Source of the DNA: an uncultured Bacilli bacterium
Lineage (GTDB): Bacteria; Bacillota_I; Bacilli_A; RF39; UBA660
Direction of reading: 5' to 3'
NCBI GenBank assembly: GCA_944355255.1
Contig: CALVQD010000070.1
Location: 1 to 33,236, forward strand
DNA: 33,236 nucleotides
Part shown: positions 7,849 through 32,990 of the stretch, piece by piece
Layout: each line of letters starts with the position of its first letter
Position numbering within the stretch: position 1 is the first letter of the stretch
Notes under the pieces: model-generated
Database searches by the model: none
What the model was told of the DNA's origin: nothing
Seen by the model: the letters and a program-made list of their open reading frames with translations, nothing else
Position numbers and translations under genes: made by a program

Positions 7849-7889
7849 ATCACCTTAATATATTATATGTGAAATGATTTTATTTGTTA

Positions 7890-10589: not shown

Positions 10590-10643
10590 AAAAACCTCCG
10601 GTTCTTAATTATCATCATAATACTACTAATATCATAACATAAA

Positions 10644-10676
10644 AATGAAAAAATGAAACATATAATTGTTTCATTT
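10644..10676 (-). terminator. terminator between the surface protein and VirD4 genes
   Basis: A 10-bp perfect stem (10667-10676 with 10651-10660) with a 6-base loop is followed on the minus strand by TTTCATTTTT. It overlaps the stop codon of the preceding gene and suggests that virD4 is at least partly transcribed on its own. Confidence 0.7.
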
Positions 10677-11494: not shown

Positions 11495-11520
11495 TCTACC
11501 CCTTTCTTACATTTTACGCC

Positions 11521-13413: not shown

Positions 13414-13447
13414 GAAGGCTCACCTCGATCCTGCTAAAAAATAATAA

Positions 13448-15232: not shown

Positions 15233-15773
15233 TTGTCATCACCGTCCCAAACGTAGTGGTTTGTCCACCATTTAAAAAGTTATCCAAAATAATTCTCAAA
15301 TCATCATTTGTAGTTTGATGGCATGTTAACTGAGCATTTGCAAATTGTGTAATTAAATTACGAATACGCTTCTGCATTTTATCTTCATCTCTTGTTTTAA
15401 ACAATAAATAGTATTCTGTATCAACAATGTTATTATTTACAAAAAAGTTTCCCTTATTAATATCTTCTACAATTAATTTACGACGAATTGGATCATTTGT
15501 ACTATTGTATAAAAGTTGTAGTTGTGACAAGTAAACACTAATATCTACTGGTCTATCTGCAGCAATCACCCAAAATTCATAATCAATGGTGTTATACACA
15601 TTCTTTAAATTAGTAATCATTGCATTTTGCATTTCATAATCTAAAATAAAGATATTTCTAGGCATAATTTTTACTCCAGTTACTTTTTCATTATTATCGA
15701 GAATAATAGTACCATTCTTAATATCTTTCACTGGTACAAACTGTGTTGTATATTTATCTTTTATTTGTGCCAC
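15222..15773 (-). CDS. TraC/VirB4 N-terminal-like protein
   Basis: This 183-residue soluble protein has no signal or membrane segment. It begins with TTQFVPVKDIKNGTIILDN and contains MPRNIFILDYEMQNAMI and WVIAADRPVDISVYLSQL. This is the beta-rich layout of the extra N-terminal region of TraC/VirB4-type ATPases. It ends 11 bases inside virB4 in another frame. Either an ancestral long VirB4 is encoded as two proteins, or this is a dedicated VirB4 partner. Similar small TraC-like genes between PrgI and VirB4 genes occur in other Gram-positive-type T4SSs. GTG at 15773 overlaps the PrgI gene by 20 bases, so translation is likely coupled at both ends. Confidence 0.7.
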   Translation of the reverse strand: MAQIKDKYTTQFVPVKDIKNGTIILDNNEKVTGVKIMPRNIFILDYEMQNAMITNLKNVYNTIDYEFWVIAADRPVDISVYLSQLQLLYNSTNDPIRRKLIVEDINKGNFFVNNNIVDTEYYLLFKTRDEDKMQKRIRNLITQFANAQLTCHQTTNDDLRIILDNFLNGGQTTTFGTVMTSGY

Positions 15774-16071
15774 GTCTCATACACCAACCTTCCCATTCAA
15801 ATTGTCTTCTTTCTCTATAAAAATTAATCAGTTCCTGTAAGAATGTTAAAACATTATGATAATTTGGAACAGGCATTACCATGAATCCGGTAATAAGTCC
15901 TGGCGCCAATACCAATATTGTCACTAATGTGCTATCTAGCGGTATAAACATTAGAAAGATCAACGTTAAACCTACTCCACATCCAAACATTGCCAAATCA
16001 AACCAAGTAAACAGTCCAAATAATAATCTAGACTTTTTAGAATTGGCAGGAATTAAATAATTTCCATTCAT
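15754..16071 (-). CDS. PrgI-family T4SS membrane protein (VirB3-like)
   Basis: This 105-residue protein has two adjacent membrane helices (about 18-40 and 44-66) joined by a short turn. The typical PrgI tail follows: MVMPVPNYHNVLTFLQELINFYRERR, then aromatic and basic residues. PrgI proteins sit immediately before VirB4 in Gram-positive T4SSs and are thought to be VirB3 counterparts that tether the ATPase. AAGGGTGTG precedes the ATG at 16071. It lies 23 bases after the VirB6-like gene, giving the canonical order VirB6, PrgI, VirB4. Confidence 0.85.
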   Translation of the reverse strand: MNGNYLIPANSKKSRLLFGLFTWFDLAMFGCGVGLTLIFLMFIPLDSTLVTILVLAPGLITGFMVMPVPNYHNVLTFLQELINFYRERRQFEWEGWCMRRGTNKR

Positions 16072-16094
16072 TTTGTATCACACCCTTTTCTTCT

Positions 16095-17972: not shown

Positions 17973-18003
17973 CCCTTATCTCAAAAAGTCTATATACACC
18001 AAC

Positions 18004-18012
18004 ATTATATCA
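18004..18012 (-). promoter_or_regulatory. extended -10 promoter of virB6-like gene
   Basis: On the minus strand TGATATAAT (18012-18004) is a perfect extended -10 element. The -35 region lies in the preceding terminator and is poor. It is about 30 bases before the VirB6 start. Confidence 0.6.
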
Positions 18013-18013
18013 T

Positions 18014-18041
18014 AAAAAAAAGTATTAATAAAATACTTTTT
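18014..18041 (-). terminator. terminator after the Cys-rich VirB2-like gene
   Basis: A 10-bp stem (18032-18041 with 18017-18026) with a 5-base loop ends in seven or more T residues on the minus strand. It lies 10 bases after the stop codon. Confidence 0.8.
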
Positions 18042-18051
18042 ATTTTTCTTA

Positions 18052-18810
18052 TCAACTTTTACTACATTTATTATTCAATAAGCAATTCGCACATTCCATA
18101 ATGGAACCAGCACCAGCATTAGAAAGCAATTCCGCAGAGAATTGAACAATTGTAAATACGAGGAACACAGCTACTCCAGCAATCAGTCTTTGTATAAATT
18201 TTTTCCCTGCCTTACTAATCGCAGCTTCATCTTGTGCCATTGTTGCTTTAGCAAAATCTAGCATTCCAAAAACAATTAATGCAATTGGAGTAATCATTTT
18301 TAATAAGTTATAAATGTTTGATACAAATTGTGGTATTTTTGCATCAATTTCTATATCTGTTCCACAACTAGCTGTCGTTGTACTTTCATCTTTTGCATTT
18401 GCTTTTGCATAACATGTTTTATACCCAGAAACATTACAACGATCTCTAATCGGATCTCCATTGGCATCTTTTTCACAGTTTGCTCTTAAGCAAGCTTCTG
18501 CTTTTTCTCCAGTATCATCAATATAAACATCATTTGAGTTATCTATCGTTTCATAATCATCAGGATCTCTTAAATGCTCACAAGATGAATAACAAGGTTG
18601 TAAATTCGTATTACTGGTATTACGATTACATATCTCAATACATTCATCATATGTCTGGGCAGTTGTAGTGCCACTACTCGGACTAGGATTGTTACACGTT
18701 GGATCTGTTGGTGAACAGTAATCTGCAGATACCGAAAAAGGTATGATCCAAAAACAAGCAACAAAAAGAATCACGCAATAGAATATATGATATCTCCTGT
18801 TTTTACTCAT
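18052..18810 (-). CDS. secreted Cys-rich protein with C-terminal VirB2-like domain
   Basis: This 252-residue protein has a signal peptide (hydrophobic core about 9-27, cleavage probably after VSA) and a Cys-rich ectodomain (about 29-155). Its last 95 residues are clearly related to the two small VirB2-like proteins encoded just upstream: IPQFVSNIYNLLKMITPIALIVFGMLDFAKA, then a charged turn, then a second helix FIQRLIAGVAVFLVFTIVQF. The mature part has 14 Cys, an even number that fits disulfides. Cys before the first helix and after the second match the pair in its paralogues. A pilin-like subunit with an added surface domain, perhaps a minor or tip subunit, is likely. It has its own promoter and terminator. 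Confidence 0.75.
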   Translation of the reverse strand: MSKNRRYHIFYCVILFVACFWIIPFSVSADYCSPTDPTCNNPSPSSGTTTAQTYDECIEICNRNTSNTNLQPCYSSCEHLRDPDDYETIDNSNDVYIDDTGEKAEACLRANCEKDANGDPIRDRCNVSGYKTCYAKANAKDESTTTASCGTDIEIDAKIPQFVSNIYNLLKMITPIALIVFGMLDFAKATMAQDEAAISKAGKKFIQRLIAGVAVFLVFTIVQFSAELLSNAGAGSIMECANCLLNNKCSKS

Positions 18811-18826
18811 AATATCACCTATTATT

Positions 18827-18856
18827 AGTATATCATAATAAGCATCCTTTCTACAA
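18827..18856 (-). promoter_or_regulatory. promoter of the Cys-rich VirB2-like gene
   Basis: TGATATACT (18835-18827 on the minus strand) is an extended -10. TTGTAG (18856-18851) may be a weak -35 at 18-bp spacing. It lies between a terminator and an AGGTGAT ribosome-binding site. Confidence 0.6.
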
Positions 18857-18865
18857 TCATTTTAA

Positions 18866-18895
18866 TAAAAAAAAGAACATCTGTTTAATGTTCTT
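18866..18895 (-). terminator. terminator after the second VirB2-like gene
   Basis: An 8-bp perfect stem AAGAACAT/ATGTTCTT (18888-18895 with 18873-18880) has a 7-base loop that contains the stop codon. It is followed by a long T tract on the minus strand. Confidence 0.85.
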
Positions 18896-19232
18896 GAATA
18901 ATTTCTTGAATACATTTTAAAGCATCATAATCATTTGTACTTCTTCCATTAGTTTCGGCAGAATCTAGTAGTTTTAATAAGAAAATTGTAATACTTACTA
19001 CAAAAAACACCATAGCACCCGCTAATAATTTCTTCATAAACAAAGTCTGATACTTCTTCATATCCTCTTCTTTTTTTGCCGCTACAGCTTTGGCTAGATC
19101 AACCATACCAAAAATAATTAATAATAGCGGAACACCAATTTTAATGAAATCAATCACATAAGAAATTGTATTTAAAATGTAATCCGGAATAGGAACCCCA
19201 CCAATAGCACATACTGAACTTAAAATCCACAT
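18885..19232 (-). CDS. VirB2/TrbC-like pilin subunit 2
   Basis: This 115-residue protein has two membrane helices (about 18-46 and 67-90) joined by a Lys/Glu-rich cytoplasmic turn (AAKKEEDMKKYQTLF). One Cys lies near the N-terminus (Cys8) and one near the C-terminus (KCIQEI). It is a clear paralogue of the gene upstream. The IPDYILNTISYVIDFIKIGVPLLLIIFGM helix and the LLAGAMVFFV helix align without gaps. This is the VirB2/TrbC hairpin type, though unlike classic pilins it lacks a long cleaved signal peptide. No Shine-Dalgarno site is seen before ATG 19232, and an intrinsic terminator lies directly upstream, so it is probably expressed far below its paralogue. Confidence 0.75.
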   Translation of the reverse strand: MWILSSVCAIGGVPIPDYILNTISYVIDFIKIGVPLLLIIFGMVDLAKAVAAKKEEDMKKYQTLFMKKLLAGAMVFFVVSITIFLLKLLDSAETNGRSTNDYDALKCIQEIIQEH

Positions 19233-19238
19233 AAAGTA

Positions 19239-19268
19239 AGAAAAAAGTAATTACTCTAGTAATTACTT
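19239..19268 (-). terminator. terminator/attenuator between the two VirB2-like genes
   Basis: A 10-bp perfect stem AAGTAATTAC/GTAATTACTT (19259-19268 with 19245-19254) with a 4-base loop is followed by T residues on the minus strand. The stem contains part of the stop codon of the first pilin gene. Partial read-through would set the ratio of the two subunits. Confidence 0.75.
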
Positions 19269-19596
19269 AAAAAATCTCCTTCAAGCATGTTACTGCTCCA
19301 GTTGTTTGTCCGTCTCTTTCACCAGCATTATCTAGAATTCCTACTAAGAACTGTACAATTGTAATAACAAAGAATACTAAAGCTGCAGCCATTAATCTTT
19401 TAATAAATGTTGACTGTGCCTTCTTAATCTCGTCTTCTTTACTGCCCATAACGGCCTTTCCTAAATCAATCATACCAAAAATGACTAGGATAATTGGAAC
19501 ACCGATTTTAATACCTGTTACAATATAACTAATAATATTTGTAATCATTGGTGGAATTTCTACCCCGCCAATTTCACAACCTGCTAATATAAACAT
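19267..19596 (-). CDS. VirB2/TrbC-like pilin subunit 1
   Basis: This 109-residue protein has two membrane helices (about 17-45 and 66-88) flanking a charged turn (SKEDEIKKAQ). Cys7 near the N-terminus and a Cys in the VTCLKEIF tail match the positions in its paralogue. With both termini outside, the two Cys could form a disulfide that closes the hairpin. Size and shape fit the major pilin/VirB2-like subunit of Gram-positive T4SSs. It has the best expression signals of the three paralogues: a near-consensus promoter (TTGACA-17-TATACT) and a GGGAGGTAA site before ATG 19596. A terminator follows the gene, which would give abundant short transcripts. Confidence 0.8.
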   Translation of the reverse strand: MFILAGCEIGGVEIPPMITNIISYIVTGIKIGVPIILVIFGMIDLGKAVMGSKEDEIKKAQSTFIKRLMAAALVFFVITIVQFLVGILDNAGERDGQTTGAVTCLKEIF

Positions 19597-19620
19597 AATT
19601 TACCTCCCTTGTTTAAAATA

Positions 19621-19649
19621 AGTATAACCAATATTTCTGTTTTTGTCAA
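19621..19649 (-). promoter_or_regulatory. strong promoter of the T4SS pilin module
   Basis: A perfect TTGACA (19649-19644) and TATACT (19626-19621) are 17 bp apart on the minus strand. It starts only 9 bases after the TadZ-like stop codon, so it separates the T4SS module from the Tad module. Confidence 0.85.
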
Positions 19650-19657
19650 TTTATGTT

Positions 19658-20686
19658 CTAAAAAATACCTAAAATTTTATTTCTTCTCTCTACGTTTCGT
19701 CCATCTGACTGTAAAGTAAAACCAAGTTTTGTAAGTAAATCATTTAAAACTGGTAAATCGGACTCTCGTTCATCTAATGGTGGAAGATTAAAAAATACAT
19801 TTAATTTGGATTCATATTCAAATTCTGCCACATCATTACTACTTAATAAGCTCTGATTTAATACTACTTTTTTATTTTTTAATTTTAAAATAATTTTAGG
19901 ATCTACCATTGTTAGGCGATTCAATTTAATAATTGAAGGTTCAATTAAATAAATAACATCAGTACAGCTTTCTAAGGCTTTTTTATCGTCATTTACATCG
20001 ATCAGCAACACGTCATGATCGGATAATCTAGAAATTTTATCTGCTAATTCCGTCTTATCTACACTGTACATGTTTTTATAGCGAAAAAAACTAAATTCAC
20101 GACGCCCAACTTCAATTGCAGCTACTTTGTAATTTCTTTCTAATTGTCTTAACATCATATAAATTAAAGTAGTTGCCCCAGTATTTTTGGTAATATTTTT
20201 TACTCCCAATATTTTTGTTTGTTTTGTTACTACTGGTTGTACCATTGCTCCCATCATATTTGCATTTGAATTATTTGGTATTTGGGACATTGGTTGAGAC
20301 TGTTGATTAATTACCAAATAGTGAGCGACATCTTTATACGTATTTGGTGTATTTAATAAATATTGAATTCCATCTAAACTTTTCGTAAAATTATAAATTC
20401 CCATGGCAACTAATGTAGAATAGAAGTTAGGAATTGTTGTATCCGCTGTATCATCAAAAAATAAAATAACCTTACTCATATCTAATTCAACAGATAATTG
20501 TTGCAACTTTGAAATATCCTTATAATCTTTAATTGCTGTAATATCTAAAATCATGCGTTGAAAAAAGAAGTTTTTAAACGTTCTAATAATTTCTTCTACA
20601 TCAAATTCTCCATACATCGTTTTAATAATATCAATATTTAAAGATTGTAACATAGACTGATATTTGTTTGCGATAATAACGTTCAT
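19658..20686 (-). CDS. TadZ/CpaE-like protein with degenerate P-loop
   Basis: This 342-residue cytoplasmic protein has a receiver-like N-terminal domain (about 1-130; LDMSKVILFFDD and ALDGIQYLL-type strands and helices). A linker rich in Gln, Asn and Met leads to a MinD/ParA-like domain (about 155-342). At the deviant Walker A site, where active members have KGGxGKT, it reads NITKNTGATTL (about 163-173). The KGG and GKT lysines are not both present, so ATP hydrolysis is doubtful. The later VLLIDVND and DVIYLIEPS strands keep the fold. TadZ/CpaE proteins place Tad pili at the cell pole. The position after TadA, TadB, TadC and pilin genes supports the call. GGGAGGTG precedes ATG 20686. Confidence 0.8.
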   Translation of the reverse strand: MNVIIANKYQSMLQSLNIDIIKTMYGEFDVEEIIRTFKNFFFQRMILDITAIKDYKDISKLQQLSVELDMSKVILFFDDTADTTIPNFYSTLVAMGIYNFTKSLDGIQYLLNTPNTYKDVAHYLVINQQSQPMSQIPNNSNANMMGAMVQPVVTKQTKILGVKNITKNTGATTLIYMMLRQLERNYKVAAIEVGRREFSFFRYKNMYSVDKTELADKISRLSDHDVLLIDVNDDKKALESCTDVIYLIEPSIIKLNRLTMVDPKIILKLKNKKVVLNQSLLSSNDVAEFEYESKLNVFFNLPPLDERESDLPVLNDLLTKLGFTLQSDGRNVERRNKILGIF

Positions 20687-20719
20687 AATTCACCTCCCTA
20701 AGAGTTGTTATATGAATGA

Positions 20720-20746
20720 AAAAAGACAATAAAACAATGTTTTATT
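20720..20746 (-). terminator. terminator before the TadZ-like gene
   Basis: The stem AATAAAAC/GTTTTATT (20739-20746 with 20728-20735) has a 3-base loop and leads into TCTTTTTT on the minus strand. The stem is AT-rich, so it may be leaky and pass transcription to tadZ. Confidence 0.6.
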
Positions 20747-20771
20747 ATATCTTTTCATGCATTAACATAGA

Positions 20772-21278
20772 TTAATATTCATATTCTACTTCATCGTATA
20801 TAACTCTACTTTCTCCCTCAATTGGATATTCAATGACAGAGACAAGTGGAAATTCAAAATACATATATGCAGTCACTTTAAAATAGTAACCACGTTCTGA
20901 CGGAATTCTCCATACACAATAACGGTAATCACTTGTCGGAGTTAATAGTTGTGCAGTACGGTTTGCCTCTGAAGAAGAAGCACCATTTGTACTGGTCCCT
21001 TCACTATCTACTCTTAAACGACAATTTTGTGTTTTATTTGGGTTTACACGATACCCAATATTTCTCAATTCGTTATTGATTTTTGTTGTAACTGTATTTG
21101 GCAGTCTCGTGCTGTTTGGTCCTATTTCATCTGCATTTTGAACTAGAATATCAATAATTGTATTTTTTACTCTGGATGCTTTTGAGTAACTAGAAGAACC
21201 TGCGAATATGATAATAAATATGACGACAAAAACAATAATCATATTAAATACAAATGTGTTTCCTATCGCTTCTCTCAT
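20772..21278 (-). CDS. TadE-like minor pilin, copy B
   Basis: This 168-residue protein has a very short leader (MREAIG), one long hydrophobic helix (about 8-30) and an ectodomain of about 135 residues. It contains two Cys (NCRLRV and YRYCVWR). The ectodomain is related to that of the preceding gene: YCVxR, then VTAYMYFEFPLV, then a Ser-Arg-x-x-Ile-Tyr end. Single-helix proteins with a short charged leader, encoded after TadC, fit TadE/TadF minor pilins, which are cut by a prepilin peptidase and join the Tad pilus base. It lies 9 bases after its paralogue. Confidence 0.7.
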   Translation of the reverse strand: MREAIGNTFVFNMIIVFVVIFIIIFAGSSSYSKASRVKNTIIDILVQNADEIGPNSTRLPNTVTTKINNELRNIGYRVNPNKTQNCRLRVDSEGTSTNGASSSEANRTAQLLTPTSDYRYCVWRIPSERGYYFKVTAYMYFEFPLVSVIEYPIEGESRVIYDEVEYEY

Positions 21279-21287
21279 ATTTTACAC

Positions 21288-21749
21288 CTACTCATAACTT
21301 GTCTGAAAGATATAGATACGATTTGTTCTTGAGGAAACTGGAATCTTAAATAAATTATTTACAAGTGGAACATTCATATAAATATAAGTGGTTACTAAGT
21401 ATGTAGAATAAGCTGTCTCTTTTCCATCCGTATCCGTTTCATGTCTTCTATATACGCAGTAATCAAATAAATTTGTACTAGCACTTCCATCAGTCATTAA
21501 TTCGTAATCTTTTCTTTCAGGGCAACGAATTGTATCCGCTGCATTATACCCTAAAGACTGTAATATTCCATTAATTTCTTCAATCGCATATCGATTATAT
21601 CCTTCATGTCTTTCAATCGCATTAATAATTCTACTATTTACTTTAAATGCTCGGTTGTAACTTATGATTCCAGCGAGAAATGCAAATACAATCACAATAA
21701 ATAAAATGATAAAGTTAAATAAATATATGCCTCCAACGCTTTGTTTCAT
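21288..21749 (-). CDS. TadE-like minor pilin, copy A
   Basis: This 153-residue protein begins MKQSVGG, followed by one hydrophobic helix (about 8-29) and an ectodomain with two Cys (IRCPERK and FDYCVYR). It is a paralogue of the next gene, sharing the leader type and the end of the ectodomain (VTTYIYMNVPLV, then SRTNRIYIF). The leader fits a class III/type IV prepilin signal with cleavage after Gly. It probably works as a minor pilin with the Flp-like subunit encoded 25 bases upstream. Which copy is TadE and which TadF cannot be told. Confidence 0.7.
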   Translation of the reverse strand: MKQSVGGIYLFNFIILFIVIVFAFLAGIISYNRAFKVNSRIINAIERHEGYNRYAIEEINGILQSLGYNAADTIRCPERKDYELMTDGSASTNLFDYCVYRRHETDTDGKETAYSTYLVTTYIYMNVPLVNNLFKIPVSSRTNRIYIFQTSYE

Positions 21750-21774
21750 AAGTTACACCTCCCACATTTTTTCA

Positions 21775-22005
21775 TTATGTAGCATCTGGGTTATCTTCAA
21801 GGCATTTATCATAAGTTTCTTTGTCATAACCAGCTTGTGTTTGACATCTTCCGCCTTCCCATTTACCTCCAGCATTAGTACAGCACGTTCTTGTTTTTGT
21901 TGAATTCATAATGTTTGTAATTAATGGAGTTGCTACAAGGGCTACAATTCCAATTAATAAAATTGTCAATACTGTGATGTTTGCTTCTCCTGAAGCTTCT
22001 TTCAT
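21775..22005 (-). CDS. Flp-like small pilin of the Tad module
   Basis: This 76-residue protein starts MKEASGEANITVLTILLIG. A short charged leader ending in Gly and a following Glu precede one hydrophobic helix (about 9-30), as in Flp-type prepilins. The tail after the helix is short and hydrophilic with four Cys (CC, GRC and DKC), even in number and able to form two disulfides. Flp pilins are usually 50-80 residues, so size fits. It is the likely major subunit: it has its own near-consensus promoter and a GGTGGTGAG site, directly after TadB/TadC. Cys in an Flp tail is not usual and links it to the Cys-rich partners here. Confidence 0.75.
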   Translation of the reverse strand: MKEASGEANITVLTILLIGIVALVATPLITNIMNSTKTRTCCTNAGGKWEGGRCQTQAGYDKETYDKCLEDNPDAT

Positions 22006-22038
22006 ATTCTCACCACCTTACCATATTTTACTATGTAC

Positions 22039-22067
22039 ATTATACAACGAATTATTTTGTTATTCAA
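22039..22067 (-). promoter_or_regulatory. promoter of the Flp-like pilin gene
   Basis: TTGAAT (22067-22062) and a perfect TATAAT (22044-22039) are 17 bp apart on the minus strand. An internal promoter here would raise pilin levels above those of TadA, TadB and TadC. Confidence 0.75.
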
Positions 22068-22080
22068 GACACTTTACATG

Positions 22081-22881
22081 TTAAATACCCATCATTTGTG
22101 TCATTGACAATAATAGCAAGAAAATAATTCCTCCACCCGTACAACAAAGCATCATCATTGTCTTTTTTTCCATCTTCTCTAAACGATCTTTATATTTTTG
22201 TTCACGTGCTTTGTTTTGTAATTGTGAAACAGTTTTAGAAAACATCATCAACTGTTCTTGTTTATTTTCTTGACTACCTAATCCGAGACGATACAAAAGT
22301 CTCATCATACGCATAGAATCACGTACTGGATATTGTTTTGCAAAATCCATATATGGATCTACAGAAGAATCTCCAGCATTTACTTTTTCCACTAATTCTC
22401 TTAAGCCTGATTTAAAAATATCCGGAGCTGTATCAATACTACGAGCTAGAGCAACTGGTACTGTATAATGTTGTACTAAAATCTCTAAGCTCTTTAAATA
22501 GTATGGAAGCATTAAGTTAATTTGATACAAATTCGCCTGGTAAAATCTTTTCAAATTGATATATGGCATTTTAAAAAGAGCAAATGCAATAATTACAATA
22601 ATTAATACATTTAAAAAACTTAAATTTGAAATAAACAATAGAAATAATACACCAATTGCAATAATTGCAGTTTGAACTCTTTTTGAAAATAATTTATTTA
22701 CATCAATATCATCACCATAACGTACTCTTAATAAAAATTCATAATCATCTTCCATCAAAAATCTTAAATAAGGTTCTGTATCTTGTACGAATTTTTTTGC
22801 ATCAATTGTGTGATTCAAATGTAAAATAAATAGAACAATCACACTAATAATAATAAACATTACACTCATTGGTATTCCCAT
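22081..22881 (-). CDS. TadC-like pilus platform protein
   Basis: This 266-residue protein has N-terminal hydrophobic helices (about 3-22, 72-88 and 90-105), a cytoplasmic helical domain typical of GspF/T2SSF-type proteins (about 110-235) and a C-terminal membrane helix (about 243-262). The LMLPYYLKSLEILVQHYTVPVALA and MRMMRLLYRLGLGSQENKQEQL segments fit the TadC family. TadB and TadC together form the inner-membrane platform on which TadA acts. The start codon overlaps the tadB stop by one base (TAATG), so translation is coupled. Confidence 0.8.
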   Translation of the reverse strand: MGIPMSVMFIIISVIVLFILHLNHTIDAKKFVQDTEPYLRFLMEDDYEFLLRVRYGDDIDVNKLFSKRVQTAIIAIGVLFLLFISNLSFLNVLIIVIIAFALFKMPYINLKRFYQANLYQINLMLPYYLKSLEILVQHYTVPVALARSIDTAPDIFKSGLRELVEKVNAGDSSVDPYMDFAKQYPVRDSMRMMRLLYRLGLGSQENKQEQLMMFSKTVSQLQNKAREQKYKDRLEKMEKKTMMMLCCTGGGIIFLLLLSMTQMMGI

Positions 22882-23783
22882 TATTCAGCACCTACATTCT
22901 CATTATAATATTTCTCACCATTTAGTAAAAAGGCGGTATTCATAATTACAATCGCATGTAATATGACTTGAATATACCATAGATTTAACATGTTAATATA
23001 TGTTTCGTTTCCAAGCAATAATTGTACTAACATTACCATGAAATAAAGCATAAATCCAAATTGTAAAAATTTTCTATGGAATGTTGCACGATCAATACGA
23101 TCACGGTATACATTTTCAACTAACATATCAATATCTAATGACATATTTTCTAACGCACCTGATGAGTTTTTAGAACCTTCATTGGTGATTTGTGTAAATA
23201 ATTGATGCATATTTTTTACAATATAATAATCGTACTTATTATTAAAATAACTAATTGATTCTTCAATCGTACCATTTTCATACGCAAGATCAATCATCAT
23301 TTTAACATCATCTTTTACAGGATTTTCTAATACTCCAGATTCATAAACACCTTCTAAAGCCTTTACAAAAGATTGTGTTGTATTAAATTCCATAATTGTA
23401 TTTGTCGTATATACTTGAATTTGTTCAAAAATAAATTCACTATATACACGATTACATCTCAAATAAGTTAAATATGGAATTACAAAAATAGATAATATCG
23501 CATACATTAATGCTACTAAAACATTATAAAAATACATATAAGTAATAACAAATGCTCCAACAGCAAATACTGATGCTTGTAATACATATTGTCTTGGCGT
23601 GTATTCTTGACCAAGTTCTTTTACTTTTTCCCTTACTACTTTAAAAGAGTAAGGGGCATACTTGTCATAAATGGACGTTGCTTGTTGTGATATATACTTA
23701 TAAACATTCTGTCCAGAATTCTTACGATAAGCAATTATAAATACCACAATAAATGCAACTAACGCAAAAATTAAAAATGTCAT
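22881..23783 (-). CDS. TadB-like pilus platform protein
   Basis: This 300-residue protein has N-terminal membrane helices (about 2-18 and 72-110), a central cytoplasmic T2SSF/GspF-like helical domain (about 115-235) and two C-terminal helices (about 243-262 and 268-288). The layout matches TadB, and the gene sits between TadA and TadC as in canonical tad operons. The NTTQSFVKALEGVYESGVLENPVKDD stretch is typical of the family. It is the platform partner of the TadA ATPase. It starts 15 bases after the tadA stop with a good AAGGAGGTAAGGAG-type site. Confidence 0.82.
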   Translation of the reverse strand: MTFLIFALVAFIVVFIIAYRKNSGQNVYKYISQQATSIYDKYAPYSFKVVREKVKELGQEYTPRQYVLQASVFAVGAFVITYMYFYNVLVALMYAILSIFVIPYLTYLRCNRVYSEFIFEQIQVYTTNTIMEFNTTQSFVKALEGVYESGVLENPVKDDVKMMIDLAYENGTIEESISYFNNKYDYYIVKNMHQLFTQITNEGSKNSSGALENMSLDIDMLVENVYRDRIDRATFHRKFLQFGFMLYFMVMLVQLLLGNETYINMLNLWYIQVILHAIVIMNTAFLLNGEKYYNENVGAE

Positions 23784-23798
23784 ATCTCCTTACCTCCT

Positions 23799-25070
23799 TT
23801 AAAATAAAGATTCTATAGTAGATGTAGTGGGATTACTTACAGGTTGTCCAGATACGGTTGATTGATGGTTCATAAATGTAGAAGATGACGATTGAAATTG
23901 TGGTGTTTGGCTTGTCATAGTAGATTGTGGTTGCTGCATTGCTGTTCCTATTGCAGAAAAGCCACCATCTTGCATACCTGACATGTTAGAATTTGTTGTT
24001 TCACCGTTGTTTTCTTCTACTTTTATCATATTGTTTGGAAGAACTACTCCTTGTCCCTCTAAATAATCAATTAAATATTTACTTGGATTATGACGAATTG
24101 TATTTCCTTCCATATTTTTCTTATAAATAATGTTACATACTGCTTCATTGGCATCATTTACATAAAACTCTACCACTTCGGCAATTTCACGGACAAATTT
24201 TCTTGTTGTTTTATCTTGATAACCACGAATATATACACCAATTTGAATATAACGATAAATTGATTTCAAAAATTGGTCAATATCTTGATTTGTCTCGAGT
24301 AAGCTATACATACGACTTGGAATAGAGGCTGCATTGCTAGCATGAATCGTTGATAAAATGTAGTGTCCAGATGAAATTGAGTTACGAGCAGCCATAACAG
24401 CTTCAGCACTACGAATTTCCGATAATAGAATCCATTTCGGGTTCTGTCTCATACATGTTACTAATACATCACTATAAGAAGCAATATTATTTGTCTTCAT
24501 CGACACAATATCACGATGTGGAAAAATACGGTCTAAATGTAATTCCAGTGTATCCTCAATGGTAATGATCTTTTCATTTTCAGCAGTATGAGCAGCTAAA
24601 TATTTAACAAGCTCTGTTTTACCACTACCAGTTTCTCCTGATACGATAATATTACAATGACCTTCAACACATTTTAATAAAAAGTCGTGAATATCCAGTG
24701 TTACATATTTATCAGCAATAATTTTATCTTTTTCTAATCGAACTTTTGCAGGTGTTTTACGTAAAACAGCCGCAATCCCATTTCTGGCAATTGAATCATG
24801 TACAAAGTTTAAACGTAATTCAGTACTTTCCGCATCCAAGAAGGGAGAAGCCATATTGAATGTCTTTCCCATCACATTGGAACATTGAAATGCTAGTTTT
24901 TCCATAAAAGCATTATTTATATTAGGTTCCTCGACACGATAAATTCCTTTCGATAGGGTCTTTAACCACAACTGTCCCCCATTACTGTATGAAATATCTG
25001 TCACATCTGGGTCGTCTAAATACTTTTTTAACTCTCCAAAGTCTATTTGATCAAATACTATTTCATTCAT
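23799..25070 (-). CDS. tadA: TadA/CpaF-type secretion ATPase (VirB11/PilT superfamily)
   Basis: This 423-residue protein has an N-terminal domain (about 1-120), then the ATPase core with Walker A VSGETGSGKTE (about 140-150), Asp-box IITIEDTLELH (about 168-178), Walker B WILLSEIRSAEA and His-box TIHASN (about 240). Such hexameric ATPases power pilin assembly. They are in the same superfamily as VirB11, which is otherwise missing from this locus. The last 70 or so residues are Ser/Thr/Gln/Asn-rich and probably disordered, an unusual extension for TadA. It starts 3 bases after the CpaB-like stop and is followed by TadB and TadC. Confidence 0.95.
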   Translation of the reverse strand: MNEIVFDQIDFGELKKYLDDPDVTDISYSNGGQLWLKTLSKGIYRVEEPNINNAFMEKLAFQCSNVMGKTFNMASPFLDAESTELRLNFVHDSIARNGIAAVLRKTPAKVRLEKDKIIADKYVTLDIHDFLLKCVEGHCNIIVSGETGSGKTELVKYLAAHTAENEKIITIEDTLELHLDRIFPHRDIVSMKTNNIASYSDVLVTCMRQNPKWILLSEIRSAEAVMAARNSISSGHYILSTIHASNAASIPSRMYSLLETNQDIDQFLKSIYRYIQIGVYIRGYQDKTTRKFVREIAEVVEFYVNDANEAVCNIIYKKNMEGNTIRHNPSKYLIDYLEGQGVVLPNNMIKVEENNGETTNSNMSGMQDGGFSAIGTAMQQPQSTMTSQTPQFQSSSSTFMNHQSTVSGQPVSNPTTSTIESLF

Positions 25071-25073
25071 GAA

Positions 25074-25916
25074 TTATTGATTACCATTTCCAGATGGACT
25101 TGTAGTTGGAGAGGCAGAAGTACTTGGACTTGTTGTTGCTTGTTCTTCAGGAATAGATACTGTATTAGCATTGATAAAATCTTTTAAATATTGTGTACTA
25201 ACTTCAGTTGAACCAGAATTATCTACTGTTCCACCATGTGGTACTGGGAATAGTTCTACTGAGAAAGAATACATATAACTTGCTTTTCTAAGTAAAATAT
25301 TAATTTCATCTTCTACTCCGAAAATTAAATATGCAGGTACACGTTGTTCTTCACTATTTTCAAACACATGTTGTCCACTACTGTCTTTAACATCTAATAC
25401 TTCGATGTTCTCAATTAATTTACCTACCATAATTTGTCCATTTTCAGCTTCTGCTTTCATATAAATATCAATTTTATTACCAGGAAAAATTGAGTTACCA
25501 TAAGTAGAATCCATATCTACTGGAAAGTTATAAACAACTTCTCCCTCTTTTACTTTTACAAATGAACTATCTGGAAGATCGTCTTTAGAAACTACTGTTT
25601 CTTCATAAAACATACTTCCTTGTGGTATTACAGTATTATAGTTAGAATACTTTCCAATAATATCTGTATCATATCTTAGGACATTACTTCCTAATACAAC
25701 TGGAGCAACATCAACATAATCAATCATATCAGACTTAATTAATGTCTTAGGTTGAATTGTTTCTCTTGCTACTGGAACTGACACTGGATTTACTTTAGAA
25801 TCAATTTGTGCTTTATATCCAAAGTAAAGTAGTGCCATAATGACGATAACACCAATAATCGTTACCGTGTTCTTGTTTTTCAACAATCTTTGTAATGTTA
25901 CTTGAATATTCCCCAT
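25074..25916 (-). CDS. CpaB/RcpC-like SAF-domain pilus assembly protein
   Basis: This 280-residue protein has one N-terminal membrane helix (about 17-34), then a SAF domain (about 44-105; VPVARETIQPKTLIKSDMID and VIPQGSMFYEETV). A second beta-rich region (about 120-215) contains FPGNKIDIYMKAE. The tail is Ser/Thr/Pro-rich. CpaB/RcpC proteins belong to Tad loci; in diderms they work with the secretin. In monoderms, which have no secretin, the SAF domain is thought to bind the cell wall or guide the pilus. It precedes tadA by 3 bases and has an AAAGGGATG-type site. Confidence 0.82.
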   Translation of the reverse strand: MGNIQVTLQRLLKNKNTVTIIGVIVIMALLYFGYKAQIDSKVNPVSVPVARETIQPKTLIKSDMIDYVDVAPVVLGSNVLRYDTDIIGKYSNYNTVIPQGSMFYEETVVSKDDLPDSSFVKVKEGEVVYNFPVDMDSTYGNSIFPGNKIDIYMKAEAENGQIMVGKLIENIEVLDVKDSSGQHVFENSEEQRVPAYLIFGVEDEINILLRKASYMYSFSVELFPVPHGGTVDNSGSTEVSTQYLKDFINANTVSIPEEQATTSPSTSASPTTSPSGNGNQ

Positions 25917-25935: not shown

Positions 25936-26352
25936 TTAATATGGAGTTTCCAATATTGCATCTAATTTATTTACTATCTCAAAATTAAATGTATCTTGTC
26001 CGCCAAGCAATATGGCAAGTGATTGCGTCTTTCGACTTTTAATACGTATACTTACCTTCGGTGGATATTCATTAACGTCGTAAATTTCAATGCGGTACTC
26101 ATTTGCTAAACTTGCACTTTGGGCAAAACGACGTAAGAAACTTTCTACAAACTTTTCACGATCGATACGAATATTCCCGGTGGTATTATAAGTTGCGATA
26201 TCGAAAGCATCAGTCATCGCCGCCTCAGTTGTCTCTTTTAATAAAGTATAGTTGTGCTCATCTGTATTTGTTAAAGTTTGGAAATAAAACATCAATACAA
26301 TTGTCGTAATTCCAAGGCCTACAACAAATGCTCCCCAATATGATTCTTTCAA
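25936..26352 (-). CDS. single-helix pseudopilin-like protein
   Basis: This 138-residue protein begins MKESYWG, followed by one hydrophobic helix (about 7-27), a helical stretch (about 33-75) and a beta-rich end (EYRIEIYDV, VSIRIKSRKTQ, TFNFEIVNKLDAIL). The leader resembles those of the three pilin-like genes downstream, although Trp stands beside the Gly. There is no Cys. A minor pilin or initiation subunit is plausible; the family is not recognised with confidence. It lies 13 bases after the giant surface protein gene and 19 bases before cpaB. Confidence 0.6.
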   Translation of the reverse strand: MKESYWGAFVVGLGITTIVLMFYFQTLTNTDEHNYTLLKETTEAAMTDAFDIATYNTTGNIRIDREKFVESFLRRFAQSASLANEYRIEIYDVNEYPPKVSIRIKSRKTQSLAILLGGQDTFNFEIVNKLDAILETPY

Positions 26353-26365: not shown

Positions 26366-29281
26366 CTAATCTTTATTACAACGACTGATATCGTGTCCCT
26401 TATTTGTCGTACAAGTATTTCCAGTATCCGTTAAATAACTTTCAATAAATCTACTCTGACAATCTTTTCCATCTGCACATTCTAGTTCAAAATCGTCAAA
26501 TTTATGTCCTCTGTTATATCTTCTGATTTCAGAAATTGCAGCACTATCTAACTCAAAGATATACATTGGCTTTTCTGTATAAATTTCTTCTTCCTCTGCA
26601 TCACGGTTATTTGTAATATACTTACTAACTAAATAATTGTTTTTAGAATTCCAATTACTTCCCGGAGTACGTGTTTTTCCATCCTCACTTAAGAATGGAT
26701 TTGATAGTGAAATTTCACGATAAATAACATTAATTCCACCCTCCATTTTACATACTGGATAATCTTGATATTTTGGATCAGAACAGCAAGACTTATCATT
26801 AATCGTAGGAATTGGTGAACAAGTTCCAGTATTTCCTGCACATTGATATTTCTGTTCTAATTGTTTAAATTCTTGATAAGTGAGTCCATAACTTACATAG
26901 TTATCTCTCAAATCTTCACAACAGTTAATTCCATCCGGTCCTTTACCAGGAGTTGTTCCATATGGAGCACCTGTATACTGTGATGGATTATTGTAATCAC
27001 ATTTTGTATTTAAAGAACTTCTACAGATAGGATACTTCTCTAATAATTCTTGGATTTTTTCTTCATCACCCTCAAATTGAACTAAGAAGTGATTACAACA
27101 GTTTTCCCCATTTGGACCACTGTCTGGTTCTCCATCTCCATCTAAATCTTTAAATTGTTCAGGGTTTTGATAATCACAAACAACGCTGTCTCCTTTTTTT
27201 ACGTTGTATTGACATGTATAGCTCTTTGCATATTTATCAAAATGAGTAGCATCGTTATTTGCACTAATTTTCTTATAAGTCAATGTAACTGTATTTCCTT
27301 TTTTCTCATTTTGACCACTTGGAATTGTTGAATCATCTACCGCTAAACTACCATATCCACGATTTGTATAATTTCCAATTTCCTCACTATTTGGAGCGCG
27401 GTATGAAATAATTCCAGTCTTTTTATTTGTATAACTGTATAAATCATTTGGTAATACATATTGATTTTCTGTAGTAGCCGTATAAGTTTTATAATCCCAA
27501 ATACTTTCTGCATATGCTTGAATACCAGCAGCAGAAGTAGAGAAATTAGAAACAGTACCACTATAAGAAACACTATAATTAGTTAATTCTGTAGGATCCT
27601 TTTTAGAAACTAATTCTACACTTCCAGTTGTCGAACCATCTTCATCTTTCCCGTTACGATATCCTTTATAACCACTCAAAGTAATTGTTGGTTGTAAATC
27701 ATAAGCAAATTTTCTATTATTTAACACACTATCACTAGTACAACTTCTGATTTGGTTTACTAAACTCGTTTTTGTACTTGAAGATGCACTTTGATAATCA
27801 TCATACCAATTTTGGTAATCAATTTTTACTTTACACTCACGTGTTCCACTTACACTTAAACGATATTTACTACTGTTTGGCCAAATAAATGAACTTCCCG
27901 TCATAACATATCCCTGATAACTTCCAGGAAGTGTCAAATCTGTAGATTCTTTACAATATACTGTACAGTAAGAATTGATGGTAGAAACTTTGTACATCTG
28001 TGTTTTACTTTTATCCAAGTACATACATTTCCATGATACTGTATCCATAAACGTATGTGTTTTTGAACTACCATCTGTTCCACAACTTGGGGTTGTAGCA
28101 GTCGGTGGCTCACTATTTACATCACAAGATCCACAGATCGGATATGCGAATTCAATTTCATCTTTTGTATGAGAAGATGTAATGGAACTATCAACACAAC
28201 AATTCGTACCACCTGGGCCACTATCTGGTTTTCCATCCCCATTTGTGTCTTTAAAATGATCTGGATTTGTCCAATCACATTTTGGTAACATACTATAAAA
28301 CCATAAAATACCGTGGGCATATGGGTTTGGTGTATTTCCATTTCCACTAAATAATTTACTTCCTAAAATATCCAGATTATAATTCACACCACCTGAATTA
28401 TTTGGATTATACTGAATAACTGGATCATTTGTTGAAACATATCGTGAATTAAATCCTCCAGATGTATTTTGATCTGAAGATAAATATAAAGCACGAGATC
28501 CAGCAACAGCAAATGCATATAACATTCCAAGTTTTGTATCTGTTCTATTTCCGTGGTTCCACATAAATGCCATCAACTCTGTAACCGTTCCAACATAAAA
28601 TCTTTCTCCAGCATTATAATTAATTGCAGTAATTGGTTCAAATTCCAAAAAGTGTTCATCTGCATTTTTATCGTTATAATAATCATAACCCAAATCATCC
28701 TTGAGCATTTTCATAAACTTAGAAGTATTATTTGTAGCCATGTTTATAAAATAATCTAACACTCTTGTATTGCTTCCTGTCTCTCCCTCTCTTGGCCAAA
28801 TTCTAGGAAGATTTAAAACACTAGCATTTGATAAACGACTTTTTTCAAACTTTACCGTTCTTAACTGCCTAGATGAATTACTATATTTAATAACTGCTGA
28901 TTTATTTCCATTAGTTTTTCTATATTTATTATAGTAAACAGTCTGTTTCGTGTTTTTTAATTCATTATATATTCCACTTCTAAAATAGTCATGAGAATAT
29001 GTTCCCGTTACTTTTTTTCCATTTTTATCAACAATGGTTAAACGAAGTCCTTCAGCACTCGCACCATTGCTTGGATCATCATTGAAATGATAGCTCGTTG
29101 CCCAACAGTATCCGCTTGTACAACTGTCGGTATTAATTCCTCCACCTGAGCCAGCGTTACCATCTACATCCGATGTATCTAACGCAGAAACAGTAGTAAT
29201 TGGGGAGGTTAAAACCATACATAAAAATATGGCAGTAAATATCAATAATACTTTTTTTGTTTTTCTTAGCAAAGCACTCAC
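26366..29281 (-). CDS. large secreted Cys-rich repeat protein, candidate pilus adhesin or tip
   Basis: This 971-residue protein has a signal peptide (hydrophobic core about 11-32) and no C-terminal anchor or sortase motif. About 30 Cys are in the mature part. Four copies of a Cys module begin near residues 334, 702, 761 and 820. The first two read CD-x-x-NP-x-x-F-K-D, then DGDGxPDSGPxGxNCC, then YPIC about 20-30 residues later; the third lacks the Asp loop and the fourth is shortened. The DxDGDGxPD loop resembles thrombospondin type 3 calcium sites. The N-terminal 330 residues and the 390-700 region look like beta-rich folded domains. Position before the pilus genes suggests a tip adhesin or structural surface partner. 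GTG at 29281 is used; TTG at 29272 has better spacing to AGGGG. Confidence 0.75.
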   Translation of the reverse strand: MSALLRKTKKVLLIFTAIFLCMVLTSPITTVSALDTSDVDGNAGSGGGINTDSCTSGYCWATSYHFNDDPSNGASAEGLRLTIVDKNGKKVTGTYSHDYFRSGIYNELKNTKQTVYYNKYRKTNGNKSAVIKYSNSSRQLRTVKFEKSRLSNASVLNLPRIWPREGETGSNTRVLDYFINMATNNTSKFMKMLKDDLGYDYYNDKNADEHFLEFEPITAINYNAGERFYVGTVTELMAFMWNHGNRTDTKLGMLYAFAVAGSRALYLSSDQNTSGGFNSRYVSTNDPVIQYNPNNSGGVNYNLDILGSKLFSGNGNTPNPYAHGILWFYSMLPKCDWTNPDHFKDTNGDGKPDSGPGGTNCCVDSSITSSHTKDEIEFAYPICGSCDVNSEPPTATTPSCGTDGSSKTHTFMDTVSWKCMYLDKSKTQMYKVSTINSYCTVYCKESTDLTLPGSYQGYVMTGSSFIWPNSSKYRLSVSGTRECKVKIDYQNWYDDYQSASSSTKTSLVNQIRSCTSDSVLNNRKFAYDLQPTITLSGYKGYRNGKDEDGSTTGSVELVSKKDPTELTNYSVSYSGTVSNFSTSAAGIQAYAESIWDYKTYTATTENQYVLPNDLYSYTNKKTGIISYRAPNSEEIGNYTNRGYGSLAVDDSTIPSGQNEKKGNTVTLTYKKISANNDATHFDKYAKSYTCQYNVKKGDSVVCDYQNPEQFKDLDGDGEPDSGPNGENCCNHFLVQFEGDEEKIQELLEKYPICRSSLNTKCDYNNPSQYTGAPYGTTPGKGPDGINCCEDLRDNYVSYGLTYQEFKQLEQKYQCAGNTGTCSPIPTINDKSCCSDPKYQDYPVCKMEGGINVIYREISLSNPFLSEDGKTRTPGSNWNSKNNYLVSKYITNNRDAEEEEIYTEKPMYIFELDSAAISEIRRYNRGHKFDDFELECADGKDCQSRFIESYLTDTGNTCTTNKGHDISRCNKD

Positions 29282-29304
29282 CCCTACTATTATGAACTAT
29301 ATCC

Positions 29305-29333
29305 ATTATACACAAAAATGTCAAAAACAACAA
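29305..29333 (-). promoter_or_regulatory. possible promoter of the large surface protein gene
   Basis: A perfect TATAAT (29310-29305) has TTGTTG (29333-29328) 17 bp upstream on the minus strand. The -35 falls inside the preceding terminator hairpin, so strength is uncertain. Confidence 0.45.
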
Positions 29334-29354
29334 TAGGCTTTCCGCAATTGTTGT
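29321..29354 (-). terminator. terminator before the large surface protein gene
   Basis: An 8-bp perfect stem ACAACAAT/ATTGTTGT (29347-29354 with 29327-29334) has a 12-base loop and is followed by TTTTGA on the minus strand. The short T tail makes it a moderate terminator. Confidence 0.5.
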
Positions 29355-29368
29355 CCTTTTTCATACTC

Positions 29369-30050: not shown

Positions 30051-31646
30051 TTATTTTAAATGATAAGTATATGTTGTATCATAAACAGTTATCAATAAAT
30101 CAATCTCAGTTGCATCTTTTACTTCACTTAACACTTCTACATAACCTTCATCCGTCAACGATACTCGCTTTGGCTTTATTTCTTTCAATGTGATATTTGT
30201 TTCTTTCTCTTTTTCATCGATGGTGTACACTAATTTCCCATATTTTTCTATTAGTTTTGCTAAAGAAAGTGATTTTTCTTTGGAGTCATCACTTAGTTTT
30301 AGTGTTCCGCTCAATCTCAAAATATTCTTCTCGTACTCATCAACAGTTGGCGTTAGATATTCAGTAGACGTAATACATTCATTTTCATTAAGGCAAAAAT
30401 CATACGTCAACGGAAATTTATCTGCAATCTCAATCTGATCAATTTTTAACGTACTGTTCTTTAAAATATTGTCATTGAATTTTAATGTCTTCCCCAAATT
30501 TACTGCTTCTACTTCTTGCGTACCAGTTAAATCTACTGGATTCAGAGCGATTCTAGTAATCGCATATTCCCCTGCACTGGTTCCTTCGTCAATATATTGG
30601 AATTCCATATCTTTAAGTGTTTCTTGTTTTGGAATTTCATAAATAAATACATAATTATGTTCCTCTGAATCTAATGCTTCTCCATAATATGCATTTCCAA
30701 ATTCATCTAATCTTTCAGCTTTACTATTATCACTATAGTATTTTTCTCCATCAATCACTAAAACAGGCCTTGCTGTATCAAACTTTCTTGCTGTTGTATA
30801 ATAATTTGAAATATTCATTGAAACTAAAACATATGCATTGTCCTTATCAATGATAGTTCCATTTTCTGATTTATCTGTAATATAACTTTCTGTAATTTGC
30901 ATTGTAAAGCCATTCCCAGAAAATGTATAACCTTCTGAATAAACTTTGTTTTTAAAAGCAAATTGGTAAATACCATACCCTACTCCTACTACTACCAACA
31001 CGGTTACTAATACATTGATCAAATATCTATTTTCTTTATATATATACTTCCCATGACGTAAACGACGATTCCATCCACGTTTTAACTTATCTGTATCAAT
31101 TTCAATATTAATTTCAAATTCCTCACGGTCTTTGGCATCAATATTTAAATCTTCTAAATCTTGTCCGAAATTAAACTTCTTAATATCAAATCCTGTTGCA
31201 CGTACAGCAAAAATAATTAAAGTAAACCACTCTAATATCATAACCGCAGTGACCAAATCTCTTACTAACAAAGCAATTCTAATATCTACGACCTGAATAT
31301 ACATACTATTTAGTACATTATTCGCATAATAAAATACTCCGGTTGTAAATAAATAAGATAAAATTGTAATAATATAAAATAAAACCGGTTTTTTCTTATA
31401 ACGCATTAAATAAATAATTGCAACTGCAATTATCACAATCAATAGAGGTAAAACAATAGAAACACCACTTAATAAAGCTCTAATCGTAGACTGTCCTACA
31501 ACACTTTCTACAGAGCTCGTATATGTATTAAAAAAATTCAGCACACTACTTGTTTTGTAAATCAAATAACCAATGATAAAACAAACAAATAAGTGGATAA
31601 CTTTAAAATATTTAATCAATAATGCATATGGTTTTCTTAAAATCAT
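30051..31646 (-). CDS. polytopic membrane protein with DUF4352-like ectodomain
   Basis: This 531-residue protein has four N-terminal membrane helices (about 14-34, 56-82, 90-108 and 124-148), a charged cytoplasmic segment (about 150-205), a fifth helix (about 210-230) and a large outer domain (about 235-531). The first part of the outer domain (GFTMQITESYITDKSENG, then AYVLVSMNISNYYTTARKF) resembles the DUF4352 Ig-like fold. A second beta-rich part with one Cys pair (DFCLNENECITS) follows. A role as a membrane scaffold or assembly factor for the surface proteins is possible but not proven. GAGGGCG precedes the ATG; a TATACT at 31685-31680 may be its -10 box. Confidence 0.6.
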   Translation of the reverse strand: MILRKPYALLIKYFKVIHLFVCFIIGYLIYKTSSVLNFFNTYTSSVESVVGQSTIRALLSGVSIVLPLLIVIIAVAIIYLMRYKKKPVLFYIITILSYLFTTGVFYYANNVLNSMYIQVVDIRIALLVRDLVTAVMILEWFTLIIFAVRATGFDIKKFNFGQDLEDLNIDAKDREEFEINIEIDTDKLKRGWNRRLRHGKYIYKENRYLINVLVTVLVVVGVGYGIYQFAFKNKVYSEGYTFSGNGFTMQITESYITDKSENGTIIDKDNAYVLVSMNISNYYTTARKFDTARPVLVIDGEKYYSDNSKAERLDEFGNAYYGEALDSEEHNYVFIYEIPKQETLKDMEFQYIDEGTSAGEYAITRIALNPVDLTGTQEVEAVNLGKTLKFNDNILKNSTLKIDQIEIADKFPLTYDFCLNENECITSTEYLTPTVDEYEKNILRLSGTLKLSDDSKEKSLSLAKLIEKYGKLVYTIDEKEKETNITLKEIKPKRVSLTDEGYVEVLSEVKDATEIDLLITVYDTTYTYHLK

Positions 31647-32183: not shown

Positions 32184-32990
32184 CTACTCCTCAATAAAGC
32201 CATTCTCTTTAAAGAAATTGATCATTGATTCTTCGCTCTCAAATCCTTCAATAGAATCGATTACTTCTTTATTTTGTACAACAATCGTAAGCGGAGTTCC
32301 AAATCCATCTGCTAAAATATCAAGAGATTCTGTCATACTTGTCTGATCTTCAGTTGATAGATCTGTAATATTTAAATAATTAATTGTAATATTATATTCT
32401 TTTGCAATATCATTTAATACTGGTCTTGCTTCTTCACAATGAGAACATCCTGTTTGAGCAAATACAATAATTTGTTTTTCATCACCATTAATAATATCTT
32501 GATATTGCGTATAATCAATTTTATTCAAATTTGCATCATCTGCTTCATATACCGCATCCTCTGGAATAATTCCGTTTGTCTGTAAGAAATTAAATAATCC
32601 TTCCGCATCAGTATATCCGATCTGAACACCATCCTGTTTTCCATTTCGTACTACTGCTAATGTTGGGGTTCCAAATCCATCTTGGTCAATCTCTAACATA
32701 TCTAATACTTTTGTTAAATTTTCTGTTGAAAGTTCATCTGTATTTAAATAGTAATATCCAAACTCATATTTATCACTTGCATCTTCTAATATTGGTGAAA
32801 ACTGTTGACAATAACTACATGTTGGTCTTCCTAAATAAATTAATTCTCCAGTTGTTGTATTCATTAACTGTTCAATTTCTTTTATTGTATCTTCTTGTTT
32901 CTTATTTCCCATTATCATTGATACAATGATAATTAAAATAATCGCAACTACAACACCTAAAACGGCTAATAATTTTTTATTCTCATTCAT
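32184..32990 (-). CDS. membrane-anchored tandem thioredoxin-fold oxidoreductase
   Basis: This 268-residue protein has an N-terminal membrane helix (about 7-28) and two complete thioredoxin domains in tandem (about 45-143 and 170-268). The first has the active site Cys58-Ser-Tyr-Cys61 and the second Cys182-Ser-His-Cys185. Both keep the cis-Pro loop (GFGTPT and GFGTPL). The two halves share the DGFGTP and FNFLQTNGI/INFFKENGF endings, so they arose by duplication. Topology places both domains outside, where they can form, shuffle or reduce disulfides. It is the first gene of the cluster, and many downstream proteins have paired Cys, so dedicated oxidative folding is likely. Confidence 0.85.
   Translation of the reverse strand: MNENKKLLAVLGVVVAIILIIIVSMIMGNKKQEDTIKEIEQLMNTTTGELIYLGRPTCSYCQQFSPILEDASDKYEFGYYYLNTDELSTENLTKVLDMLEIDQDGFGTPTLAVVRNGKQDGVQIGYTDAEGLFNFLQTNGIIPEDAVYEADDANLNKIDYTQYQDIINGDEKQIIVFAQTGCSHCEEARPVLNDIAKEYNITINYLNITDLSTEDQTSMTESLDILADGFGTPLTIVVQNKEVIDSIEGFESEESMINFFKENGFIEE

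Follow-up and report, generated by a model that had tools for sequence, protein, structure and literature searches.

What does a large, Cys-rich secreted protein do when its gene stands directly before a set of pilus genes, and is it an adhesin or pilus tip, as the first-pass annotation supposed? The question is raised by a 971-aa open reading frame in the window (the whole stretch of DNA analysed here, 33,236 nucleotides, one contig of a 1.19 Mb assembly). The position given for it holds, the gene lying 13 bp upstream of DUF5411, which is followed by the Tad genes. Here, we report the layout of this protein, the genes that accompany it across the family and the role that these suggest.

The ORF has a GTG start and encodes 31 Cys; all but one, i.e., 30, lie beyond the signal peptide, in good agreement with the roughly 30 first counted. 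Its Cys density is 3.2%, compared with a family median of 3.7% and 0.74% in the other ORFs of the same loci, and its four CC pairs stand against a mean of 0.93 in composition-preserving shuffles (P=0.012). The signal-peptide core is present in 53 of the 55 complete relatives. Beyond it the 971-aa protein has no further transmembrane stretch (max KD19 1.1), and LPxTG is absent, which bears out the reported lack of a wall anchor; an LPxTG/sortase wall adhesin was ruled out, since LPxTG-like motifs are missing from the last 80 aa of all complete relatives (0/55). The protein is thus Cys-rich and, to judge by its signal peptide, secreted, as described, but "giant" is too strong a word, for 971 aa is ordinary in a family ranging from about 430 to 1470 aa. 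The genus-mate counterpart keeps a full-length ORF at 66% identity.

Domain layout of the protein and its family

The 971-aa protein had no informative match in Pfam, NCBIfam, PHROGs or PDB sequences, the Pfam matches at E<=1 being chance only. The full-length structural model is of modest quality (pLDDT 68, pTM 0.43) and finds no fold match in PDB (best E 0.16); the tail profile likewise gave chance matches only against PDB sequences. The features that can be delimited are listed in Table 1.

Table 1. Coordinates of the Cys-rich protein, its parts and neighbouring genes in the window
Feature	Position	Strand	Basis or remark
Cys-rich secreted tip-like protein, 971 aa	26366..29281	-	ORF; relatives by whole-protein search and tail profile
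Signal peptide (aa 1-34)	29180..29281	-	Hydrophobic core KD19 2.34; probable cleavage after VSA, placed by eye
Variable head (aa 35-330)	28292..29179	-	Divergence from genus mate L055; mosaic with L003
Cys module 1 (aa 335-384)	28130..28279	-	Acidic loop present
Core region (aa 385-700), conserved across family	27182..28129	-	Iterated profile matches in most of 64 relatives
Cys module 2 (aa 702-754)	27020..27178	-	Acidic loop present
Cys module 3 (aa 761-814)	26840..27001	-	Acidic loop lost
Cys module 4, truncated (aa 821-844)	26750..26821	-	CC and YPVC only
Conserved C-terminal domain (aa 846-971)	26369..26746	-	Alignment of 42 relatives; no PDB sequence match
DUF5411 (PF17424), putative minor pilin, proposed to dock the tail	25936..26352	-	Pfam E 1.7e-50
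CpaB/RcpC-like	25074..25916	-	Pfam RcpC E 9.6e-6, just below curated cut-off
TadA/CpaF-type ATPase	23799..25070	-	T2SSE E 3.4e-29; VirB11/TadA models
TadB-like membrane protein	22881..23783	-	Position and size only; no Pfam match; synteny conserved
TadC-like membrane protein	22081..22881	-	Position and size only; no significant Pfam match; synteny conserved
Small Cys-containing pilin candidate, 76 aa	21775..22005	-	MKEAxGEANxTV start and CC..C kept in relatives; no Pfam match
Two TadE-like minor-pilin candidates (20772-21278 and 21288-21749)	20772..21749	-	Shared M[KR]E[AS]..G start, hydrophobic helix; no Pfam match
SecTM: secreted, C-terminal membrane helix	29369..30040	-	Upstream of 37/53 relatives having an upstream gene
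531-aa membrane protein, beyond SecTM	30051..31646	-	Conserved synteny

The tail, i.e., the last ~125 aa, has the consensus YRxISLxNPFPxxxGxGRxPGxNW...ITNNR...PMYxIxLTPxxIKxIRxYNxxxxYxDFxLxC...CxS. With the whole protein as query, 46 of the 145 genomes of the GTDB family UBA660 yielded relatives, and the tail profile matched in 110 of these 145 and in 138 of the 193 genomes of the order. According to the iterated profile, core and tail are common to most of the 64 relatives, with the head and the Cys modules variably added, and short versions of 428 and 526 aa still have both. As judged from these alignments, two parts define the family: the Cys-rich core and the C-terminal domain of about 125 aa, which is new and has no match. 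Extra tip-like copies, tandem or interspersed, are found in L058 (G064), L041 (G030), L062 (G087), L065 (G062) and L048 (G057), and one copy in G064 has an in-frame TAA stop; these are possible reserve copies. No copies were found among 72,556 plasmid records.

The Cys modules had been described as four copies, each combining a thrombospondin-3-like acidic loop with a CC pair and a later YPIC. CC pairs are indeed present in all four, but the acidic DxDGDGxPD loop is seen only in module 1, which carries DTNGDGKPDSGPGGTNCC (loop DTNGDGKPD at aa 345), and module 2, which carries DLDGDGEPDSGPNGENCC (loop DLDGDGEPD at aa 712); in the third module the loop is gone, and the fourth is reduced to a stub. 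Similarly, YPIC occurs twice in the 971-aa protein and YPVC once, whereas module 3, in which GPDGINCC is kept, ends with YQC. An alignment of 18 module copies taken from relatives shows no variation at the first Cys or the CC pair; the acidic loop, read from it by eye, occurs in 7 and is missing in 11. The conserved element thus seems to be a disulfide-type scaffold; the thrombospondin-3/calcium repeat was rejected as the defining feature, and calcium would be at most an addition in some family members. A profile search with the repeat unit alone, which the first-pass annotation had proposed, matched no known domain, either in Pfam, even at E 10, or in PDB sequences. Its suggestion of a new disulfide- and calcium-stabilised repeat was not refuted by this search; that the acidic loop defines the module is not supported.

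Gene neighbourhood and co-occurrence with TadA

Read on the minus strand, the Cys-rich gene is preceded by genes for a two-domain thioredoxin-like protein, a PH-domain protein, the 531-aa membrane protein and SecTM. It is followed by DUF5411, CpaB/RcpC, TadA, the TadB/TadC-position proteins, the 76-aa pilin candidate and the two TadE-like proteins, and then by a TadZ-position protein, VirB2-like proteins, VirB6, PrgI, a split VirB4, a SpoIID-CHAP hydrolase and VirD4. Among the Tad parts, TadA is matched by profile and RcpC scores below its cut-off; TadB, TadC, TadZ and the pilins were assigned by position and size, with no profile. The T4SS set (VirB4, VirB6, PrgI, VirB2-like, SpoIID-CHAP and VirD4) and the Tad genes keep one conserved order (window 7890-25916, L055, L073, L095, L098), VirB4 is 60-95% identical across about 121 of 145 genomes, and the scan of window proteins revealed no relaxase. 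By gene content and order, this is a lineage-wide chromosomal T4SS beside the Tad genes.

Several smaller observations belong to this neighbourhood. The thioredoxin-like protein that opens the gene cluster on its upstream side (32184-32990) has PedC/BrcD and TrbB/TraF similarity and is a possible disulfide helper for Cys-rich proteins. A VirB2-like protein (18052-18810) has a Cys-rich N-terminal extension with 16 Cys, and both its length and its Cys number vary among relatives. In the gap between SecTM and the Cys-rich gene (29296-29358, minus strand), a 48-nt stretch with a T run folds to -13.2 kcal/mol (z -3.3) and looks terminator-like by eye; it is followed by TTGACA-17-TATAGT, an 11/12 match. 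The Cys-rich gene may be the start of its own transcript, running into DUF5411 and the Tad genes.

The gene immediately downstream matches PF17424 with 170.8 bits against a cut-off of 30. By profile search, DUF5411 is present in 119 of the 145 family genomes and 156 of the 193 of the order; in a class sample of 247 genomes it exceeds the cut-off in 27, all of this GTDB family. It stands immediately downstream of 49 of the 63 copies of the Cys-rich gene that have a downstream neighbour, with a gap below 150 bp in 48 and usually of 0-16 bp; please note that the loci were fetched in searches seeded by the 971-aa protein, and the linkage percentages refer to that sample. In G098, the two genes stay together away from the Tad locus. 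In L095, L096 and L099, the slot before DUF5411 is empty and copies are found elsewhere in the same genomes, and G108, G064 and G087 have copies outside the locus without DUF5411. In L053 and L054, DUF5411 itself bears a Cys-rich passenger (about 650-1040 aa), and a short tail-domain protein adjoins it.

In the predicted DUF5411 model, an N-terminal helix of 46 residues leads into an alpha/beta head; this layout is pilin-like and suggests a minor-pilin role; the model has no fold match in PDB. Profile comparison with the other pilin candidates gave a weak likeness (12.5%), restricted to the N-terminal 28 residues, and an M[KR]E[AS]-type start is common to DUF5411, the two TadE-like proteins and the small pilin candidate. 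The last of these has a CC..C pattern and 4 Cys in the window and in many relatives, unusual for an Flp-type pilin. One PF01478 prepilin peptidase is encoded elsewhere in the genome.

The co-occurrence with TadA/VirB4 pairs that the first-pass annotation envisaged was then resolved into its two members. With "locus-type" TadA defined as E below 1e-60, a threshold that we set ourselves, TadA is found in 119 of the 145 family genomes, and locus-type VirB4 in about 121. The tail domain occurs in 105 of the 119 TadA-containing genomes versus 5 of the 26 others (Fisher P 8e-12); in other words, homologues are not widespread where the pilus locus is lacking, and this refuting condition of the first-pass annotation did not apply. 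Among these five, the gene lies at a contig edge in G018 and G121, masked sequence adjoins it in G036 (the possible orphan copy in L036 was discarded on that ground), and VirB4 is at a contig start in G087. The sole clean exception is G135, in which the protein is present and locus-type TadA, VirB4 and DUF5411 were not detected. Upstream of this copy, L070 (G135) contains a repeat protein of EYIELLNxGYxPK type in several paralogues of 355-680 aa, arranged in tandem (5316-14998). In the 14 TadA-containing genomes where the tail domain was not detected, it is possibly too diverged.

TadA and VirB4 are separated in 22 genomes. The tail is present in 8 of the 10 with TadA only, against 2 of the 12 with VirB4 only (P 0.008). 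The genomes are mostly fragmented bins in which an absence call can reflect an assembly gap, and since some of the 22 are contig-end losses, the contrast depends chiefly on the genomes with good assemblies: G094 (3 contigs) combines TadA, DUF5411 and the Cys-rich protein with no locus-type VirB4 detected, and G038 (9 contigs), G105 and G144 have VirB4 with neither locus-type TadA nor the tail domain detected. Association with the pair as such is not supported, the protein being kept without VirB4 and mostly missing where VirB4 is found without TadA; that with TadA is. On this genomic distribution, the Cys-rich protein belongs with the pilus and not with the T4SS.

Head variation and the proposed role

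Compared in 50-aa bins with its genus mate L055, the window protein is 20-54% identical in the head and 62-88% in the rest, reaching 84-88% in the tail, with DUF5411 at 99%. The L056/L087 pair follows the same trend (33%, 58%, 68%, 84%); the exception is L083/L084, in which the N-terminal third is 98% identical and the tail 85%. The head of L003 is 73% identical to that of L055 and 35% to that of the window, while the core identities are 84% for window-L003 and 76% for window-L055. The L003 head is therefore nearer to L055 and its core nearer to the window, a single mosaic that points to head exchange. A head that evolves this fast is what one would expect if this part of the protein faced a target that itself changes.

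The adhesin or pilus-tip role originally suggested appears to be the best fit to the co-occurrence with TadA, the DUF5411 linkage and the variable head. We consider it probable, with moderate confidence, that the 971-aa protein is a non-pilin adhesin at the tip of a Tad-type pilus, similar in its working to PilY1, and that its tail docks on DUF5411. It would be exported by Sec via the signal peptide and then folded by many presumed disulfides. The conserved tail would hold it on the pilus, most likely on the adjacent putative minor pilin DUF5411 together with the two TadE-like minor-pilin candidates; the fast-evolving N-terminal head would face outward and bind a target, i.e., another cell, mucus or a surface; and the Cys modules, locked by disulfides, may flank the core as stiff spacers. 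The pull would then come from the pilus as TadA extends and retracts it.

The protein could instead be needed for pilus assembly to begin at the membrane or wall, as a platform, chaperone or priming factor with no target to bind, and its near-universal presence in the locus and coupling to DUF5411 would suit such a part. PilY1 and minor pilins prime T4aP assembly (PMC7541494), so tip and assembly roles can coincide; a hypervariable mosaic head and copies elsewhere in the genome, however, would not be expected of a pure assembly part, and we hold this reading to be rather unlikely. Somewhat less credit is due to the idea that the protein serves the adjacent T4SS (VirB4/VirB6/VirD4), as its contact adhesin or as a secreted component, and stabilises the contact between cells during transfer of DNA or protein, the Tad genes acting as helper. 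It draws on the shared conserved gene order (VirB4, VirB6, PrgI/TcpE-like protein, CHAP-SpoIID hydrolase, VirD4), on the abundance of locus-type VirB4 (about 121/145 genomes) and on the dependence of monoderm T4SS on surface adhesins (PMC12102498), but the absence of the tail from 10 of 12 genomes with VirB4 and no TadA, and its presence in 8 of 10 with the reverse, speak against it.

An unrelated secreted or wall protein, e.g., a surface-layer or mucus-binding one that merely shares the pilus operon, would account for the missing anchor, the missing known domain and the copies away from the locus in G064, G087, G108 and G135. It would leave aside the tight co-occurrence with TadA, the near-constant DUF5411 spacing across dozens of genera and the off-locus pair in G098, and we regard it as very improbable.

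If the protein is the tip adhesin that we favour, the pilus and the T4SS might, as a tentative and rather doubtful extension, form a two-part chromosomal contact machine, in which a Tad-type pilus finds and grips a partner cell by an exchangeable Cys-rich tip and is coupled to a cargo-delivering T4SS. With heads exchanged between lineages and extra tip copies elsewhere, the range of partners could change while the machine stays constant. The variable-head tip protein would offer a concrete handle on what these small-genome bacteria, seen as metagenome bins, attach to; the head could be made and used as bait for cells or glycans to find the partner. DUF5411, a Pfam family of unknown function, gains a proposed function.

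Comparison with known systems

The modules resemble thrombospondin type 3 repeats in the DxDGDGxxD acidic motif near cysteines. They differ in that residue 12 of the loop is Pro instead of acidic and in the lack of a Pfam match; membership was rejected, as there are no tandem DxDxDGxxDxxD repeats matching the TSP3 profile.

The operon type has already been partly noticed. PMC9523054 reports, under Clostridia names, a gut operon with CpaF, GspF, DUF5411 and a remote Internalin-B-like protein, predicted to be secretion-related, in which CpaF and GspF adjoin the same DUF5411 marker. In the text consulted, there is no description of the Cys-rich protein with its tail domain and head variation, of the T4SS genes or of the tip reading.

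PilY1/PilC proteins have a variable N-terminal part and a conserved C-terminal part. The window protein would resemble them as a large non-pilin exported by Sec, if the neighbouring DUF5411 is the minor pilin that its model suggests. Unlike them, it has no beta-propeller match (Pfam, NCBIfam, PDB fold), is disulfide-rich by prediction and belongs to a Tad-type locus. As for the calcium-binding loop on which the function of PilY1/PilC depends, the window protein has two acidic loops, which are absent in most relatives. PilY1 forms a tip complex with minor pilins (PMC7541494, PMC8833165). In Myxococcus, the Kil Tad tips are interchangeable, have many predicted disulfides and have alternatives encoded elsewhere in the genome (PMC12075869); three pilin-like genes and a large variable tip domain are the likeness of KilLMN/TadEFG to our locus (PMC12075869). 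In KilN/TadG, the pilin itself forms the large tip part, whereas the window protein is secreted on its own; only in L053/L054 does DUF5411 carry a Cys-rich passenger. A TadG/KilN tip minor pilin was rejected, the window protein having a cleavable-type signal peptide instead of a pilin alpha1 helix fused to the tip domain. Since there is no propeller and the protein is separately secreted, we describe it as working like PilY1 or TadG/KilN and not as a member of either, and the idea of an exchangeable Tad tip would thereby come to include tips secreted as proteins in their own right.
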